A DNA stretch of 64,000 bases, taken from Onchidella celtica. Taxonomy: Eukaryota > Mollusca > Gastropoda > Systellommatophora > Onchidiidae. The DNA lies in assembly GCA_963931925.1 (NCBI GenBank), contig OZ007571.1, positions 39,693,550-39,757,549 of the forward strand, read 5' to 3'. Both the position numbers and the translations under genes were made by a program. Every line of letters begins with the position of its first letter. The stretch's first letter is position 1. Below the pieces are notes generated by a model. That model was not told where the DNA came from and did not search any database. It saw only the letters and a program-made list of their open reading frames with translations. Below, in pieces: positions 20,201 through 28,623 of this stretch.

Positions 20201-23200
20201 CTGAAGGTTCTGCTAAAAAATTCAGTCCTCACCTTACACTAATGAAATTTCAAGGGGACAAAACTCTACTTAAACATGGTAAGTCACTGTGTTGAATTTA
20301 AAAAAAAAAAAAAAGTTGCATGTCATACTACTAAGAGTAGTAAGAGCGCAAGGAAATACATCTTTGTACCTAAAGGTCATGAATAAGGGATAAATCCTTA
20401 ATGTCTGTAGCTTCCTACCATATGAGGCACTGGCACTGTCAAAAGCCAATTTGTTGTTTAAGGAAAGATCGAAAATTGGAAATTAAGCTATGAATACATG
20501 TCTTAAGTTCAAACAGAGAACCAGACTGCAGTCATGTCATGGTAACAGTGCCATGAAGACCACAAGCAAGAAATGAAGTGCCAATGGCATGGAAAGCGTA
20601 CTATATGGGAAGATTTGAATGGATATTTGTGTAAGGAAATAACATTTTGCTCATTTTGCTTGAATGAAGATACATGTACTAAACATTGAAGAGAATGTAA
20701 GTTAAATGGACTGTCCTTTAGATAAATGAATTGAGACAAATCCGTGATGTCACAGTTTGGAGAAGGGGGAGTGACATCAGGCTAAATTTGTGAGAATGAT
20801 AGATCCAGTAGATTTTTAAATCAATTTGGAATAAAATTATGTCTTTCCTAAATTGCCAAAGCCAAGAAATGTACTTTGAGAGAATTTTAATCACTCGTGC
20901 TTTATCACAAAATGGATATTGCCTACATTTATCATTTGTATCAATTCAGGTCAGTTGCTTCAAATTTGTGTTTATATACATTTCTAATTTTCTGTGGCAG
21001 CGATTCAGGACTTTGGTTACACTGAGCAGAACTTTCTAATTAGTGCCCTCTGAATTAATAGTAGCAAACTGTAAGTAGGTATCCCAAACTCACGCCTCGC
21101 GGCGGTGAAAAACGGCGCCCGGGACCTGAAAATTGGCCCTTTTCAACCGACAATAACTCGCATAATATTTCACCAATTTTAATCCTGTTTGAAAATTTTA
21201 TAAATTGAACAATCGCTTTTACTAAAAACCAAGTCGTTTTGGTCGGTATACTGTTTTGAATCACATAAATTGCTTTGAATATAGGTCACCGCGATGCCCC
21301 AAACTGCGGTTTTCGCGATCTTTTTCGAGGCCTGAAAATCGAGGTCGCTTCACAAAAACTGCTCGCGCTAAGCGGCAGAGTGTGCTAGCGTCATGAAACT
21401 AAGTGTGTTGAAACCTGCTTTGAATGGGCTTTCTTATGGTATCTTCCGCTTGATGCTAAATTAAGCCTTTGACCCAGAAATTTTGAGTTATATTTTTAGA
21501 TTGGAAAATTCCAACCCTTAGCGTTGGTTGGTCGAAATAAAAATTATACCACGTGAGACTATGTCATGTTACTAAAATTGTGTGAAAAAATCCCCACGAT
21601 TGGTCCAACAGCCATTGAGCGCCATCTGTTGGAAGTAGAGAGGGGTCAACAACACACACACGCTCTGTCTGAGTCTCTGACCCAGAAAAGGCATTTTCTT
21701 GAGAGGCATATTGTTCTTAATGATAAAACAACTCTCTCCCTGGGTTTCTCTGAAGTAGCAGTTGATGATGCAGATACTTTATTAGCTAAAACTGTGGAGA
21801 TTCTTGATAACCTTACTGAAATTTACTGCACTAATGTTCATAACCAACCCAAAGATGAAGTTTTCAAAGACATAATAAAAAAAATGAAATGTTTAATGTC
21901 AGACCGTGCTGCCGTAATGAAGAGTTTTGATAAAAAAAATGGCTCAGCATAAAAAAGATCTTTTAGGTGACAATGAGTCATCCATCCATTTCCTTTTCTG
22001 TAATGCACATTTCGTTTTGGGCCTGGCTCAGTCTACAGGAGAAGCAGTTTCTTAAATAGAAAAAAATTTAGGTAAACTTGGGAGAGATTTGGATGCATTA
22101 TTTGCGAGATATTCAAATTCAAATGAATGTTCTGTTTTCCGTTTAATTAGAACTGCTGCGGAGTTGCTTGGTCTACGTGGAGATGAAAAAAATGGCTGTA
22201 GGCAAGAGTGGCATGCTTATTGTGATACGATTAGAAAGTCTTCCAAATTCACAAGTTACAGAAGCAACAGATTCAATAATCTTTTTGAAAATGCATTGGC
22301 CATAATAGAACATCAGTCAGACATACTTACCTTTTTAAATGATTTTGTGTCACATTCAAATTTGAAACTCAGAAGTGTTTGTGCTCATTTACAAGACAAA
22401 ACATTGCTTGCATCTGTTGCTTCTGTTGCCTTATTTCATAAATGCTTCACAGGTCCATACTGGAAGCTAATGAATAGTCATAAGTCTTATGGGGAATTCC
22501 CGCACTATGTTTCTAAGATAACAACGGCTCTCGACATCTGGGACTCTGCTGAATTTGATATTCTTTTTCTTTCATTTGTCTTTGATGAAGATGAGTTCAT
22601 TTTAGAAAAAACAAATTTGACAGCATTTTTATCATCTCCAGAGTGTGATCTTGAAGTTGTAAAATTGTGTTTTAATGCAATTGTCAAGAAATTATCAATT
22701 GTACTTGAACGCCAGCTTGCTGACTTTTTACCTGGGGGGGTATATGGGGGAGTTCTTGATGGTGAAGTTCAAAAGTTGCTTTATACATGTCCAATGACTA
22801 ATTTAACAGGTGAGCGCATTTTTGGAGACTTTGATTTTGATTTGTATAAAAGAAGGAATGCCTCCCTGCATCTAGAACCACACTGAATATGTGGAAAAGA
22901 AACAGAACAGCCACCTGGCTTCAAAAACAAAATGCTAGAAAAGCTCAAAAACTGCTTGCCCATGCTCGCAAATATGCCTCAAGGTGGAAGTAGAGATAGA
23001 GAGGTGGATGTCAGAAATAAGATTAAGGAAAAGATAAAGGAAAATATGAAAAAAAAGAAAGACAAAGAAATTAGGAAAATGGAAGACAGAACTGAAATAT
23101 TGACCTCTGTTTTGGATCAAGGTGGACTTTGCACAACTAAAGAGGAGTTAGATAACCTCATAGCAAAACCAAATGCTCTGCAAAATCTGAAGGTCCAAAT

Positions 23201-26200
23201 CAGATACCGTAAAATTATCTTGGGTGAGAAAATTCTCTTAGCAGGCAATGTAAGAACTTTATACAGAAGACTGTGTAATCATTTAGGTTTTGATGCCTCT
23301 GATGATATGCCACCAAGGAAGCGAGCCCGTCCACAGTGATGGATACATTATTCAACTTTTCCTGACTCTTACCCCTTAGTCTGAAATAAATTCATGGCAG
23401 TTGTAATTTGTATGCTTATCTTACTGCTCTCAAATTTCAATTACAGGAAAGACAGAAAAAATACATGTATGTGTGAATTGAATACTTAGGCTGTAAATAA
23501 GTCATATTTTGCCTGATTTTTAATAGAAAACTATGTTGTCAATGTATTACTGTTCCTTCTATCAAAAAATGAATAGCAGAGAACTAACAGTAACAGCATA
23601 GTTGTACAATTATTTGTTAGCATATTTTGGTATAAATTGGTGTTTCAGTGTCTCGTGGTCTTGTTTACTCTTCAGTTATTGAGTGTCAAGCATTCAAGTT
23701 TGCTAATAACTTGGTAAATTCACTTGCAATCCAAAAAAGAGTGCCAGAAATGGATACCTTGCCCCAAAAAACAGGTTCATGCAAAGTTTCATGCATGTAT
23801 CTTAATTTTTGCAATTTTTATGTTGAAAATTGTGTTTTCGTCAAATTTTTTTCCAAATGGCCGTTTTGCCTGCTCAACAAATTTTGTAAAGCAATAATTC
23901 AGAGAATATTCATACTATCTGTCCAAAAAAAATTGGGCTTTCACACTGTTACTCTGACTTTACTCAGAAGGAATTTCTGGAGATTTGTATGGAAAACACT
24001 AGATTTATGAACCTGTAAAAATCACATTTTTAGCTTTTTGGTTCGAATTCGTATAAAAAATTATGTTATTTTTCTCAATTTTTACATGGTTTTTAAATAA
24101 ACAAGATCAAGACCTACTTATTCTTTCTCATTTTTCTGCATTTATTTACATATGTCATTGGAATGCATGTAAAATAACACAGTTTCGTTTGTTATTGTGA
24201 GTTCTACAGTACCGCAAACATGGGACATCGCAGCTTTGAAAATCGAGTATGAAAATTCTAAGTCAAAAAATAATTTTAAAATTCATAACTTTTTTATTTC
24301 TTAACCGATTTTGATGATTTAAAAACTGGGATTCATGTTTTCTTGAGCACTATCTGAATCAGTTAAAAAATACTGCGTTTTAATGAAATGGAAAATTAGT
24401 TTGGGATACCTACTGTAAGATAAATATGCACTTCCGGTCGAGGAGACGACGCTTTTTCTGAGAGCTCCAAATTTACACCCCCCTTTTGATGAATTTACCA
24501 ATTTTTAATACGTATATTATACCAACAGTGTTTTCACTGTACTTTTATATGAATTGGAAGTGAATGGGAATTATAATTTGACTAAATTTTTAATCTCTTG
24601 GTCCCAGATTGTGATTATAACTGGAAGGTAAGGGTGGACTGAAAAGTTCCAATATGGCGACCGCTTGTGCCGGTGGGAAGTCCACGTCTTGTGCCATTAT
24701 TAAGAGTGAGATAGTGAGATAGTGAGATCTCTCCTCTTAATGTCGATAAGTTTATTGTTCACCGTTTTAGTATATAGATCTAGACCAGAACTGTATTCAC
24801 TTGGATGTAGATGGGATATTAGATCTAGATCTAAACATGAGGCTAATTATAACAACTGGAAATTTAGTGTTGTCAACTCGCCTAAATCCAGGACCTCATT
24901 AATAAACACCTGGTCTGTCCTCGGACAGAAAAGTAGATATAGATCTAGAACCAGTCCGAAATTTAGGCTAAATAGTTCTTCAAATACAATGAACATCTCT
25001 CTGGTATTGTTCTTACTACTGTCATTATCGGGTGACGTGGAGCTCAACCCTGGACCCCAGACTAGATTCCCCCCGTGCCCCGTTTGCCTTAAAAAATGTG
25101 CCTGGAAAACGAGGGCCATCGCATGTGATAGTTGTGACCGCTGGTACCACATTGACTGTATGGGAATAAACTCAGTAATGTATGAAACACTGGGCAATAG
25201 CAGTGCCGCATGGGAATGTATCCAGTGTGGTATGCCAAATTTTAGTTCCAGCTTATTCACTGATTTTCAATTAAACTTAGACTGTAGTAGATCAAGATCC
25301 CACAATAGTTTTGATATCTTACAACATTTAGATACTAATAAAAGTAACACAGAAATACCAATCTTTGAACCAAAATATTCGTCAACCCCACACCCCAAAT
25401 CCAAGAAAAAAGAGCCAGCCAAAGAGAAAACCACGTTCAGAACCCAGGTTATAAATTTTCAAAGCATTTGGAACAAGAAAGAAGAACTGAGCTCATTTTT
25501 GAACGAAACTAAACCTGACGTAATCATCGGAACAGAAACATGGCTAAACGAAAATATAAAAACCAGTGAAATTTCAATTAATGATGATTATGAAATCTAC
25601 AGAAATGATAGGAAGAAGAGAAGGGGAGGTGGGGTGTTGATAGCAGTGAAGAAGAACTTAGTGAAAAAATACCTAGTGAGGAAGCAGGAGAAACTGTTCT
25701 CTGTAAGATTAGAGTGCAGGGTAAACCTCCTCTTGTTGTGGGTGCAGTCTATCGACCTCCTGGTAGTGACTTGGAAACTAGTAAGAACATTTGTAATGAA
25801 CTTCTCAGTGCCTACCAAAAGAACAAAAAGGCTACCATCTGGATAGGAGGAGATTTCAATTTACCTGATATAAACTGGGAAGAAGGAAATGTGAAGAGTT
25901 GCCAAAACTTAAGAGAAATAAATGACCAGTGCTGCGGATATAGGCCTAGAGCAAGCAGTAAAAGAGACCACTCGAGGAGATGCACTGTTAGACCTATTCT
26001 TTACTAATTTCCCTAACCTTACAAGAGAGATCAAAATACTTCCTGGACTAGGGGACCATGACATAGTCCAGATTGATTCAGAACTGAAACCCTTTAAGAA
26101 AAGACCTATTAGGCGACAGATTTACCTATGGAATCAGACAGACGAAAATAATTTGAAAAGGGAGGCAGCAACTTTTGGCACTTTTTTCATGAAATACCAC

Positions 26201-28623
26201 TCTTCAAAAACTGAGGCAAACAAACTCTGGGACTGTATCAAGTTAAATTTGAACATGATCATGGAAAATGTCCCAACAAAAATGTCATCCACAAAAATTC
26301 ACCAACCCTGGATAAATACTTTAACGAAAAGATTAGTACGGAAAAAATATAAATGGTTAAAAAAAATGAAACAGTGCAACTCCGAACGAGTGAAAAACAA
26401 ATATCTAGAAATTAAAAGATTGACACAGAAAGAATGCCGGGAAGCTCATAATAATTATATCCATGAGATGATAAGTGATTCATCTGATAACAGTAAAAAA
26501 CTTTGGAGATATGTGAAAAGTAAAAATAAAGAAAACTTAGGAGTAGCCGCACTGAACGATGAGAGAGGGCACCCACAGCAAGATGCCCAAAAAAGAGCCA
26601 ATATCTTAAATACTCAATTTTGTAAGGTCTTTTCCGACCCAGGGGGAGTCTTCTCGGGAGAGCTGAGTGATGCCAAACTGCCGGATATGGATGAAATATT
26701 TGTCACAGAAAATGGAGTACTGAAACTTTTGGAAAACCTTAACGAAAATAAAGCTACAGGGCCTGATGGAATTCCCGCCAAATTACTGAAACTCTGTGCC
26801 AAGGAAATTGCCCCTGTTTACACTTTGTTATTTAGAGCTTCAATTGAACAAGGAAAAATACCGGAAGACTGGAAAAAAGCAAATGTAGTACCCATTTTTA
26901 AGAAAGGAAATAGAGCTAGTCCTGAAAATTATAGACCAGTCTCCCTGACATCAATATCTTGTATACCAGCATCATGAAGCATCTCGAGAAACACTCAGTT
27001 TTAACACATGTACAGCATGGTTTTAGAAAACACAGGTCGTGTGAGTCCCAGCTGGTCACAACTTGCAATGATTTTGTTAATAACTTGAATAACAACAGGC
27101 AGACTGATACCATCTTATTAGATTTCAGTAAAGCCTTCGATAAAGTGCACCATGCTAGTCTCTTGACTAAACTAAACCATTATGGAGTTAGAAACAGTAC
27201 TTTGAAGTGGATTAAGTCTTTCTTAGAAAATAGAACACAGATAGTCGTCATTGATGGAAAGTCATCCAATCCTGCAGCTGTTCTCTCGGGAGTACCCCAG
27301 GGTACTGTAATGGGCCCCTTACTATTCCTAGTTTATATTAACGATATGCCAAGTAAGATCTCTCCAGGCACTAAATTACGACTGTTTGCTGATGATAGCC
27401 TCCTCTATAGAACAATAAACTCAAAAGAAGATACGGAAATTTTACAGAAAGATCTAGACAGTCTACAAAAATGGGAGAGGGACTGGCGTATGGAATTCCA
27501 CCCCAATAAATGCCAAGTCCTGAGAATTTCAAATAAAAAACACAACATCACCTCAGACTACTTTATACACGACGAAAAATTGAGCGAAACACATGAGGCT
27601 AAATATTTGGGAGTTACATTGGACAGAAAACTTACATGGAACCAACACATTAATAACACATGTAACAAAGCAAACGGTATACTAGCATTTCTAAAAAGGA
27701 ACATCTCTAACTGCGATAGGAAAGTAAAAGAAAAATGCTATAACACCTTTGTGAGGCCCTCCCCAGAGTATGGCTGCAGTGTCTGGGACCCCCACTGTCG
27801 AATAAACATAGACCAACTGGAAAGGGTCCAGAGGAGAGCTGCCCGCTTTGTGACAAATGACTATACTAGAAGTAGTAGTGTAAATAAAATGATGAGAGAC
27901 CTCGAGTGGACACCATTAGAAGAGAGGAGAGCAAAAAACAAAGTAAAAATATTTTATAAAGGCAGGGAAGGAAATATCCATATCCCACTGAACCACCTCA
28001 CCATTAATACCAGAGGCAACAGAAGGAATAATATAAAATATAACATCCCAAGCTCACGGGTTAACAGCCATCTTTATTCTTTTTACCCTAATGTCATCAG
28101 GATGTGGAACAACCTCCCGGCAGAAGTCCAAACACTATCGTCTGCAACAACTTTCGACAATGAATTTAAGAACATTATTATCCGTTGCAGCTACTATTGT
28201 AATTAAAGTGCGGTTTGTATTTCTGTGCACAATCTGGAAACCAAGAGATATTTATACCAGAGTTATATATACAAAAGACTTTATACAACTAATATATTTT
28301 TAAATGGTCTTAACATCTATGTAAGATTTTACCCTGTTTTTAGCCTCAGAGGAGCGACGTTGAGTCGCATATACTATAGTGCAGTTGGGGAATCGTCTTA
28401 TAGACGAACCAACTATAAAAGAAGAAGAAGAAGAAGAAGATAAAAGTAAAATCACTTTGATTATTTGACAGGTATCAAGAAGGTGAAGGATGACCAGTAT
28501 CTGCCATTTGCCAAAGAGATGTTTGGTGCTCAGACAGTGTGTAGCATGCAGCTTTGCAACATGACACGGAAGAGGGAGGATGGCTACTATTTTGTGGAAC
28601 ATGAAGTTTTCTTTTGCAAGTGA
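5252..28623 (+). CDS. AKAP7: AKAP7-like protein with 2H phosphoesterase domain
   Basis: Seven exons: 5252-5501, 6531-6673, 7454-7588, 8867-9006, 15294-15457, 20159-20278, 28472-28623. All introns are GT-AG, the phases match, and the sum is 1104 nt, giving 367 aa. Residues 1-131 form a poorly conserved, lysine-rich N-terminus with a likely nuclear-localisation run at about 112-131 (KHKHGKKETSKKELKQGKKK). The central domain matches AKAP7 (AKAP18) gamma: PNYFIAVQVTN at 164-174, first HxT at 207-209 (FHLTLMVM), second HxT at 302-304 (PHLTLMKF), and the end motif NGYYxxE as DGYYFVEHE. The two HxT motifs define the 2H fold, which in mammalian AKAP7 binds AMP and cleaves 2-5A. The protein stops right after this domain, so the C-terminal amphipathic helix that binds the PKA regulatory subunit in vertebrates is absent. 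Start chosen at ATGGCGG (5252); an ATG at 5242 is out of frame. Introns 4-6 are swollen by transposons. Confidence 0.9.
5502..8866 (+). other. AKAP7 introns 1-3 (with small exons 2 and 3)
   Basis: Introns 5502-6530, 6674-7453 and 7589-8866 hold no recognisable element ends or domains. They are AT-rich with oligo-T runs. Small open frames here (for example 6807-7073 and 8303-8518) extend through stop-rich intron sequence and have no motif. Confidence 0.6.
10698..13941 (-). mobile_element. Apparently full-length RTE-type LINE
   Basis: The element is bounded by a perfect 13-bp duplication, CTGCTTTCGTTCA, at 10685-10697 and 13942-13954. It carries one long ORF, a 5' leader of about 240 bp and a very short 3' UTR ending in a (GAT)n microsatellite (10698-10711). 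A single APE-RT ORF with a tiny 3' UTR and simple-repeat tail is typical of the RTE clade. The target site is the 3' tail of the older Jockey-like copy. Confidence 0.93.
10719..13700 (-). CDS. RTE ORF: AP-endonuclease plus reverse transcriptase, intact
   Basis: The frame encodes 993 aa from ATG 13700; the frame is open a little further upstream, but only a non-ATG codon precedes it. The N-terminal apurinic-type endonuclease that nicks the target (about residues 23-270) has ASWNVRSM at 26, SETRW at 57, GDANAKIG at 166 and SDHHML at 261, so the catalytic Asn/Glu/Asp/His set is present. Reverse transcriptase (about 500-780) has DYEKAFDS at 637, GVRQGCLLSPFLF near 693 and the active-site box as CADD at 737-740 instead of YADD or FADD. 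The C-terminus has the Arg-rich GKRSRGRPRGTW segment common in this clade. There is no stop or frameshift, so the copy could be active or recently so. Such proteins are often mislabelled craniofacial development protein 2-like. Confidence 0.93.
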   Translation of the reverse strand: MKDNGQSRKDSTGLTAPSSNKSLRIASWNVRSMYEAGKSAQVTMEMRRYRLHILGVSETRWIQSGLKQLNSGEKILYSGREDKKHTEGVAIILSKHAQRSLRGWEPYGRRIILASFTTKNKNINMNIVQIYAPTNEATDEDKDDFYNQLQEIVDTLPRKDVNIIMGDANAKIGQDNTGYEDIMGCNALGQMNENGERFASFCAFNSYVIGGSVFPHKRIHKATWISPDGVTENQIDHFCITRRFRRSLEDVIVQRGADVGSDHHMLLARLKLRLKKQGTRAGTKRRKFQVSLLDGDKKEEFQLTLRNRFKPLVDLEETVDLETHWAKIKGVFTSTCQDVLGEKKVEHKEWISQKSLDLIRIRRDLKEQVNASRTRSSRVGNQEEYRASAKEVKKSIKKDKEEFIGMLAEKAEKAATGGHMRILYQTTKTLAGKYGKPEVPVKDYNRMAIFGKEAQAKRWIEHFNSLLNRPPPSNPPDILPARNDLPISCDPPTKAEINDAIKQLNRGKAAGPDQIPPEALKADAAGAAEGLHSLFSRSWIGGKFPKDWKEGHLVKLSKKGDLSNCSNYRGITLLSIPGKVFNRIILKRIQNATDPKLREEQAGFRSNRSTTDQIATLRIIVEQSLEWNSQLIVNFLDYEKAFDSIDRETLWRILRHYGIPEKMVNLIKSMYEGTSCRVVHDGELTDSFDIKTGVRQGCLLSPFLFVLVIDWLMKETTSGGRNGIQWTPWTQLDDLDCADDLALLSHTHDQMQAKTTALNKISESIGLRIHPAKSKVLKIVAPPSAQVRVGDQPLEDVESFCYLGSIIDNKGGTEAEVKARIGKAQAAFTSLSKIWRTKDISLKTKLRIFNSNVKSVLLYGCETWNASQACIKRIQVFINRCLRKLLKIRWTDKVSNEIVWKRTRQSPVREEIGRRRWRWIGHTLRRPGNSITKKVLDWNPQGKRSRGRPRGTWRRARENDVQRSGKTWNNVKRLAHDREGWKVFVGGLYPDPG
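14572..14910 (+). repeat. Two-copy tandem repeat, period about 168 bp
   Basis: Unit 1 starts AATCGCctATCTGGTC at 14572 and unit 2 starts AATCGCacATCTGGTC at 14740. Both continue through TTTTCCTACTT, the CTACaCTTTT block and GAACTTCATTCAAAGTTTGCA. The repeat lies inside the Harbinger-like element, right of the nested LINEs. Confidence 0.85.
15554..18552 (+). mobile_element. piggyBac-like DNA transposon, 3.0 kb
   Basis: Terminal inverted repeats are CTCTCAAACGTTTTCT at 15554 and, reverse-complemented at the right end, CCCTCAAACGTTTTTT. The left flank is TTAA (15550-15553), the obligatory piggyBac target; the right flank is CTAA (18553-18556), one transition away. Inside is a complete two-exon transposase in the same orientation as AKAP7. 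The element lies in AKAP7 intron 5. Confidence 0.85.
15831..17968 (+). CDS. piggyBac transposase, intact, two exons
   Basis: Exons 15831-15970 and 16420-17968; the intron is GT-AG with a clear phase-2 junction, and the product is 562 aa. Exon 1 encodes a strongly acidic N-terminus (SSDEE, IEEEESDSSDEE), common in PGBD-type proteins. The DDE_Tnp_1_7 core carries the catalytic Asp triad: D223 in SIDERMV, D302 in LFVDNFYTS, and D417 and D420 in NMGGVDKSDQL. Residues about 530-555 form a Cys-rich C-terminal finger (CKKCYSEY, YCSVCNVFLC). It cuts and pastes at TTAA. No stop or frameshift is visible, so the copy may be functional or recently so. Exon 2 can be read 38 bp upstream to an ATG at 16382, but that lies in the intron. 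Confidence 0.92.
18557..20158 (+). other. Remainder of AKAP7 intron 5
   Basis: Right part of the TA-flanked element (to 19805), then ordinary AT-rich intron up to the acceptor before exon 6 (20159). No coding signal recognised; GCTTAATATGATTT occurs near 18703 and again near 19727. Confidence 0.5.
21074..24414 (+). mobile_element. Unclassified TIR DNA transposon, 3.34 kb
   Basis: A 17-bp perfect terminal inverted repeat, AGTAGGTATCCCAAACT, starts at 21074 and, in inverted form, ends at 24414. GTA flanks both ends (21071-21073 and 24415-24417), suggesting a 3-bp target duplication. Between them lies a broken gene whose product has a transposase-like CxxH motif. The TIR does not start CAG as in hAT, and a 3-bp duplication does not fit hAT (8 bp), so the superfamily is unresolved. 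Located in AKAP7 intron 6. Confidence 0.75.
21566..23339 (+). pseudogene. Decayed transposase-like gene of unknown superfamily
   Basis: Pieces in three frames form one protein: 21566-21949, a frameshift in an A-run near 21935, a premature TAA at about 22052, continuation to 22886, a shift into another frame (LNMWKRNRTATWLQKQ), and a final shift to 22932-23339. Motifs in order: MSDRAAVMKSFD (Asp in the RNase H-fold style), CNAHFVLGLAQ (C-x2-H, reminiscent of hAT CxxH), TNLTGERIFGDFDFD, then a Lys/Glu-rich coiled coil and an ending IRYRKIILGEKIL..PRKRARPQ. I have a memory of similar uncharacterised proteins repeated in invertebrate genomes but cannot name the family. Confidence 0.7.
24740..28206 (+). 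pseudogene. CR1-like polyprotein, three frame breaks
   Basis: Met at 24740, or internal Met at 24989. Order of parts: hydrophobic leader and 2A-type motif (GDVELNPGP, to 25057), PHD-type zinc finger (CPVCLKKC, CDSCDRWYHIDC, WECIQCG), endonuclease (PDVIIGTETWL, GAVYRPP, GGDFNLPDINW, GLGDHDIVQ), RT (LLDFSKAFDKVHH, SGVPQGTVMGPLLFLVYIND, RLFADDSLLYR) and a CR1/L2-type C-terminus (RRAARFV, MWNNLPAEV). Frame changes fall near 25700, 25920 and 26960, the last with an apparent small deletion in RT. The protein is therefore not expressible as a whole, but the 5' part is open for over 900 nt. Confidence 0.88.
24989..25057 (+). other. Hydrophobic leader plus 2A-type ribosome-skipping motif
   Basis: From the ATG at 24989 the reading is MNISLVLFLLLSLSG followed by DVELNPGP. 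The last eight residues fit the 2A consensus D-V/I-E-x-N-P-G-P, with the skipped bond between G (25052-25054) and P (25055-25057). 2A-like sequences are known at the N-termini of APE-type LINE ORFs in several marine invertebrates, where some double as signal sequences. The preceding stretch here is a plausible signal peptide core. Confidence 0.85.

Follow-up and report, generated by a model that had tools for sequence, protein, structure and literature searches.

The window, the whole 64-kb stretch of DNA that was analysed, contains a single occurrence of the pattern D(V/I)ExNPGP in its six reading frames, and this lies in a LINE copy on the forward strand with the following layout:

24428..28440 (+), frame-broken LINE copy that runs from GCACTTCCGGTCGAGGAGACG to the (AAG)n tail
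24654..25033 (+), pre-2A coding stretch, from ATGGCG to the 2A core; 121–127 codons in intact copies
24740..24742 (+), in-frame internal methionine codon named in the initial annotation; weak start context
24837..24902 (+), upstream ORF MRLIITTGNLVLSTRLNPGPH in another frame, closing with an NPGP that lacks DVE; the resemblance is probably due to chance
24989..25033 (+), leucine-rich leader MNISLVLFLLLSLSG; likely the upstream context of a StopGo site
25034..25057 (+), 2A / StopGo core DVELNPGP, assigned by sequence; protein identical in 37 of 40 copies
25076..25228 (+), PHD finger (PF00628, E 7.3e-07)
25478..25929 (+), endonuclease remains in two frames (PF14529, E 3.5e-07; PF03372, E 0.068, below cut-off)
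26971..27621 (+), reverse transcriptase domain (PF00078, E 5.9e-32); its ORF extends to 28206

The element has endonuclease and reverse transcriptase domains, copies dispersed on many contigs, shared ends and no LTRs, as an APE-type LINE does, and the label CR1-like given to it in the initial annotation is plausible. As that annotation had described, the ATG at 24989, the leader, GDVELNPGP (25031–25057) and the PHD finger are joined in one open frame, both in the letters and in the Pfam match (PF00628); the solved structures nearest to the finger are MLL1 PHD3 and then Pygopus. The accompanying remark that the rest is broken holds for the window copy, where the ORF from ATG 24989 amounts to 285 aa, but not for the family, in which 10 of 40 copies keep 1083–1084 aa. 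In the window copy, an insertion of 8 nt in the GATAGTGA tandem at ~24704–24728 disrupts the pre-2A frame and leaves its ATGGCG out of frame. The element in the window is a decayed copy of a young LINE with several near-intact copies.

A host exon (28472–28623, +) lies 31 nt past the 3' end of the LINE and is preceded by an AG splice-site-like end. Translated, this exon gives 50 residues similar to the C-terminal portion of the central domain of AKAP7/AKAP18 (5jj2, E 2.1e-04), so that the LINE apparently occupies the final intron of an AKAP7-like gene, very near the acceptor site. Two further ORFs are found upstream of the LINE, at 22089–22886 (+, 265 aa) and 22932–23339 (+, 135 aa), the former giving no Pfam match up to E 0.1.

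Family copies and conservation of the 2A core

The source genome (1.14 Gb, 43 contigs) was searched at the DNA level with positions 24740–25300 as query, and 40 of 282 candidates, including the window copy, were scored, each having at least 99% identity across 24740–25300. Besides the window's own copy, 39 others were fetched; the match starts at 24420–24437 in 27 of these, and many finish near 28440 in the (AAG)n tail. By eye, no clear target-site duplication was seen in the 19 copies, again including that of the window, whose ends were set side by side. From the leader methionine, 10 of the 40 scored copies can be read without interruption for 1083 or 1084 aa, and an eleventh for 1048 aa.

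A whole-genome search for D[V/I/M]ExNPGP returned 213 matches (99 forward, 114 reverse), compared with one in the reversed control. Among the matches listed are the window's subfamily, mostly with GACGTG at the start of the core, a second subfamily with GACGTA, and two DIEQNPGP places. We sampled 14 of the pattern places, the downstream parts of five of those, and 20 further GACGTG places. The PHD finger, endonuclease and reverse transcriptase share one frame in 10 of the 40 copies and in the GACGTA copy L051, which has a single open ORF of 1205 codons, 121 of them ahead of the core; the ORF is broken in the GACGTA copies L050 and L052. The two DIEQ copies, which share 43–58% identity with the window family in the part following the leader, are both broken, and in each of them a leucine-rich stretch and DIEQNPGP remain in frame with cysteines arranged as in a PHD finger. 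Viral contigs probed for relatives contained one stretch that fitted a pattern, and none was confirmed. Also among the matches listed, three motif places on contig 5 (58002835, 58007961 and 58013086) lie on the same strand with spacings of 5126 and 5125 bases, which suggests a tandem array in which the element is included.

In 37 of the 40 copies the core is DVELNPGP, in frame, the deviant cores being DVELKPGP (L013), DVELNPGS (L014) and DVELNPRP (L020). L014 and L020 belong to the ten complete-ORF copies, so that a complete ORF and an intact core are not perfectly coincident; their core changes look like single-copy mutations. Conservation of the core stretch among the 40 copies is partly built in, since they were picked by similarity within 24740–25300, and the conservation seen at 24740–25100 in a first alignment was set aside for the same reason.

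A comparison of the two subfamilies (L038 versus L051) gave 6 silent changes and 1 replacement in the leader and 2A core, corresponding to an omega of 0.04, the strongest constraint anywhere in the ORF; the PHD finger has 0.19, the linker 0.16, the endonuclease 0.15 and the reverse transcriptase part 0.17. The initial annotation had looked to purifying selection on leader and NPGP, and had named intact relatives lacking NPGP, or with the motif out of frame, as evidence that would count against it. Strong purifying selection is indeed observed between subfamilies, and the 2A core is in frame with PHD, endonuclease and reverse transcriptase in the complete-ORF relatives, which largely carry NPGP, with the exceptions of L014 and L020. 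The broken frame of the window copy would fit a view of NPGP as a chance or relic resemblance that causes no skipping; however, the excess of genomic matches over the control, the omega of 0.04 and the retention of a core in the DIEQ family, with its 43–58% identity downstream, make this highly improbable.

The segment LLSLSG ahead of DVELNPGP fits, by eye, a leucine-rich StopGo class of RNA viruses, which the available text of PMC12846837 describes as leucine-rich, ending in (A/S/C)G and having a D-type core; there, one of its leucine-rich motifs 2 and 6 was tested and was active in vitro. Our segment shares with this class, as presented in that text, its richness in leucine, the SG ending and the D at the first core position, but the viral class favours S at the variable core position, which is L here (PMC12846837). 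Since a leucine-rich stretch ending in SG also lies just ahead of one class of StopGo sites, the hydrophobicity of the leader does not by itself call for a signal peptide. The leader is likely the upstream context of a StopGo site, judging from its sequence, and a role as a signal peptide is only putative. The leader of L061 contains a long insertion, probably another repeat, which by eye resembles, in reverse complement, the sequence that precedes the DIEQ element of L048.

The reading frame ahead of the 2A core

In most copies an ATGG start that opens the 2A frame is found 363–381 nt (121–127 codons) ahead of the core. Among 72 copies of the window's element, 50 have the frame open from this start to the core, 9 have it broken (the window copy included), and 13 lack a start in range; the two DIEQ copies are excluded from this count. 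Within copies L067–L086, 12 are open, 3 are broken and 5 have no ATGG start. When three copies were resampled with the same dinucleotide make-up, the frame stayed open in only ~0.0001 of cases. One DIEQ copy, L049, is open for 109 codons from an ATGGCG (chance 0.0027); the second lacks the 5' part of L049 and has a 4-nt gap, so that the DIEQ evidence for the pre-2A stretch comes from one copy.

The frame is also kept by the gaps between copies. In a seven-copy alignment the pre-2A gap patterns measure 3, 6, 3, 3, 6, 12 and 18 nt, all seven being multiples of three, whereas those of the 5'UTR measure 1, 1, 1, 1, 5, 6, 1 and 1 nt, one of eight being a multiple of three (Fisher p 0.0014, rising to 0.0047 if the two hexamer-repeat gaps are left out, both values being approximate because one event may underlie several overlapping patterns and L051 alone accounts for the 5- and 6-nt gaps). 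With these 5- and 6-nt gaps removed, L051 lying there outside the element, none of the six remaining 5'UTR patterns is a multiple of three. Pairwise comparisons likewise give pre-2A gaps of 3, 6, 12 and 18 nt and 5'UTR gaps of mostly 1 and 2 nt, with the exception of a 3 or 6 nt gap found once in the 5'UTR, in pairs with L052. Hexamer units of the TAGATCTAGA type (window 24940–24949; L053, L058 and L060), read as Arg-Ser, differ in number between subfamilies and extend a basic RS stretch without breaking the frame.

These observations bear on the start codon. The initial annotation had the ORF begin at ATG 24989 with a signal-like leader, and mentioned a further methionine at 24740. The latter is real and in frame with 2A; it is an internal methionine in weak context (T at −3, T at +4). 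A start at ATG 24989 is disfavoured by the ATGG-to-core frame, open in 50 of 72 copies, and by the gaps between subfamilies, whose lengths are multiples of three. Only ATGGCG, among the ATGs of the five copies listed, combines A at −3 with G at +4, weaker ATGs being present upstream of it and between it and 2A; the leader methionine has the A at −3 only, L081 has lost it, and the DIEQ family has no equivalent. Upstream frame-keeping, this loss and absence, and the better context of ATGGCG together make the leader methionine the less likely start, and the ATGGCG at 24654, overlooked in the initial annotation, the likelier one.

According to the model proposed initially by analogy, translation would start at ATG 24989 and the leader would be a signal sequence as well as part of 2A, such that uncut protein would be secretory and cut protein cytosolic; in a mixed version, both starts would be used via leaky scanning. 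The constraint does rise sharply from the leader methionine onward, this codon does have A at −3, and L040 and L046 retain a complete downstream ORF with a broken pre-2A frame. There is also a precedent in the sea urchin NLR proteins, in which an N-terminal 2A of 26 aa works as both signal and 2A according to the available text of PMC4981915. There, as here, a hydrophobic stretch runs directly into the 2A core, but in the portion available it belongs to the N-terminus of a host immune protein, in contrast to a retrotransposon whose frame most likely starts 121–127 codons earlier (PMC4981915). A 2A within ~26 residues of the N-terminus is possible from Met 24989; the frame evidence favours a start 121–127 codons ahead. 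The gaps and open frame upstream, the context of ATGGCG, the loss of the leader methionine in L081 and its absence from the DIEQ family, and the fact that StopGo itself accounts for the leucine-richness leave this model unlikely in our view.

A second NPGP, at 24885, was considered as a duplicated 2A and rejected; it lies in another frame, lacks DVE, and is probably a product of chance. NPGP arises in the resampled 5' region with a probability of 0.00175. Of 1000 resamples, 22 did as well as a global alignment of the two NPGP regions with hand-set bounds, and 750 did as well as the local alignment. This NPGP is present in 39 of the 40 scored copies, in none of 10 GTA copies, and in 16 of the 20 further GACGTG copies (subfamilies A and B and one D copy). 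The upstream ORF 24837–24902, with its C-terminal LNPGP followed by a stop, is kept in A and B; C keeps the ATG and not NPGP.

Constraint is lower ahead of the leader. Between L038 and L051 the pre-2A stretch without the leader has 10.5 silent and 19.5 replacement changes, an omega of 0.54 that is not distinguishable from neutral (p 0.14). Subfamilies A, B and C were compared as majorities of chosen open copies, with L069 excluded. A versus B gave 0 silent and 13 replacement changes in the pre-2A stretch minus its last 15 codons, and no change in those last 15 codons. The corresponding values are 9.5 silent and 19.5 replacement (A versus C) and 9 silent and 23 replacement (B versus C), with 5 silent and 1 replacement in the last 15 codons in each case. 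The 13-to-0 excess has a neutral probability of ~0.03, calculated by arithmetic from site counts and being the most extreme of six comparisons. Within the window's subfamily, variants are uninformative on constraint because 66 of 72 are singletons (35 usable of 40 copies, 5 having been dropped as lacking the ATGG start). Thus the pre-2A frame is kept while its sequence is free or pushed to change, with constraint rising at the leader.

The encoded first product would be basic, with a net charge of +12, +11 and +6 in three representatives, and hydropathy places a hydrophobic segment near its N-terminus (residues 19–40 in A, 18–42 in C and 1–20 in L049). A Pfam search of the pre-2A stretch of four members gave only a weak hit (0.021) in one of them. 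The DIEQ pre-2A stretch cannot be aligned to that of the window family, and the likeness of the first products is therefore one of layout only: both families have ATGGCG, a hydrophobic N-terminal segment and a basic RS stretch, as seen in one DIEQ copy.

It is conceivable, then, that the pre-2A stretch is translated and kept in frame, that its product has no function, and that 2A only sheds an unwanted N-terminal extension from the PHD-endonuclease-reverse transcriptase protein. The near-neutral omega, the scarcity of Pfam matches and the failure of the DIEQ stretch to align would all agree with this, although the layout common to both families, albeit from one DIEQ copy, and the A/B replacement excess, which hints at more than drift, argue against it. 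We consider it less probable than not, and it can be compatible with the frame and the skipping of the explanation preferred below, the probabilities of the alternatives overlapping.

A possible two-product LINE and its known counterparts

The explanation that we regard as probable is that the window holds the decayed remains of one member of a young LINE family with a single ORF, which StopGo splits into a small ORF1-like protein and a PHD-endonuclease-reverse transcriptase protein. In intact copies, translation would start at the ATGGCG 121–127 codons ahead of the 2A core, and the first product would be a basic polypeptide of ~128–134 residues that carries, close to the N-terminus, a hydrophobic segment resembling a membrane anchor. 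The leucine-rich leader and DVELNPG would then occupy the ribosome exit tunnel and cause the chain to be released at the glycine, after which the ribosome would resume at the proline to make the PHD-endonuclease-reverse transcriptase protein. The first product would thereby substitute for a separate ORF1 protein.

If the hydrophobic segment were to engage the ER, skipping might be modulated there. Such an influence has some precedent in artificial polyproteins with N-terminal signals, where, in the available text of PMC2978324, some sequences directly before 2A inhibited the reaction in cells. A bolder extension is that the apparent 5'UTR hides an ORF1 for a small, basic, membrane-anchored protein that is released by StopGo and is under selection for change, with the ribosome anchored at the ER and the efficiency of skipping setting the proportions of freed and tethered reverse transcriptase. 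We hold this extension to be speculative and rather unlikely.

Odon et al. 2013, a study cited in other papers, reportedly described 2A in APE-type LINEs, linked to one-ORF elements, Heras et al. 2006 are said to have found 2A in L1Tc of Trypanosoma cruzi, and Rao et al. 2025 reportedly surveyed eukaryotic 2A sequences. The LINE 2As of Odon et al. 2013 and of L1Tc reportedly resemble the present one in having the 2A core in frame ahead of the endonuclease and reverse transcriptase; they are not known to include a frame-kept, fast-changing, basic pre-2A product with a hydrophobic segment like that predicted for the present element. 2A in one-ORF LINEs is already known, and the pre-2A frame is the part for which we found no description. 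That search covered titles and the beginnings of abstracts; a frame-kept, fast-changing pre-2A product in LINEs was not described in them, the most relevant papers lay beyond it, and no priority is claimed.

An N-terminal PHD is described for single-ORF CR1 subgroup 6 and L2 subgroup 4 elements in the available text of PMC4120745. Like the present element, these are presented there as having one ORF, a PHD before the endonuclease and no separate ORF1 (PMC4120745). In the portion available, their descriptions include neither a 2A nor a product ahead of the PHD, whereas the present element has a 2A (PMC4120745).

The family described here is a young one that links a 2A site to selection, to complete ORFs and to an upstream frame easily mistaken for a 5'UTR. 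It would also offer an example from nature of StopGo following a chain that may be targeted to membranes. The family suggests that LINEs called one-ORF may still yield two proteins.
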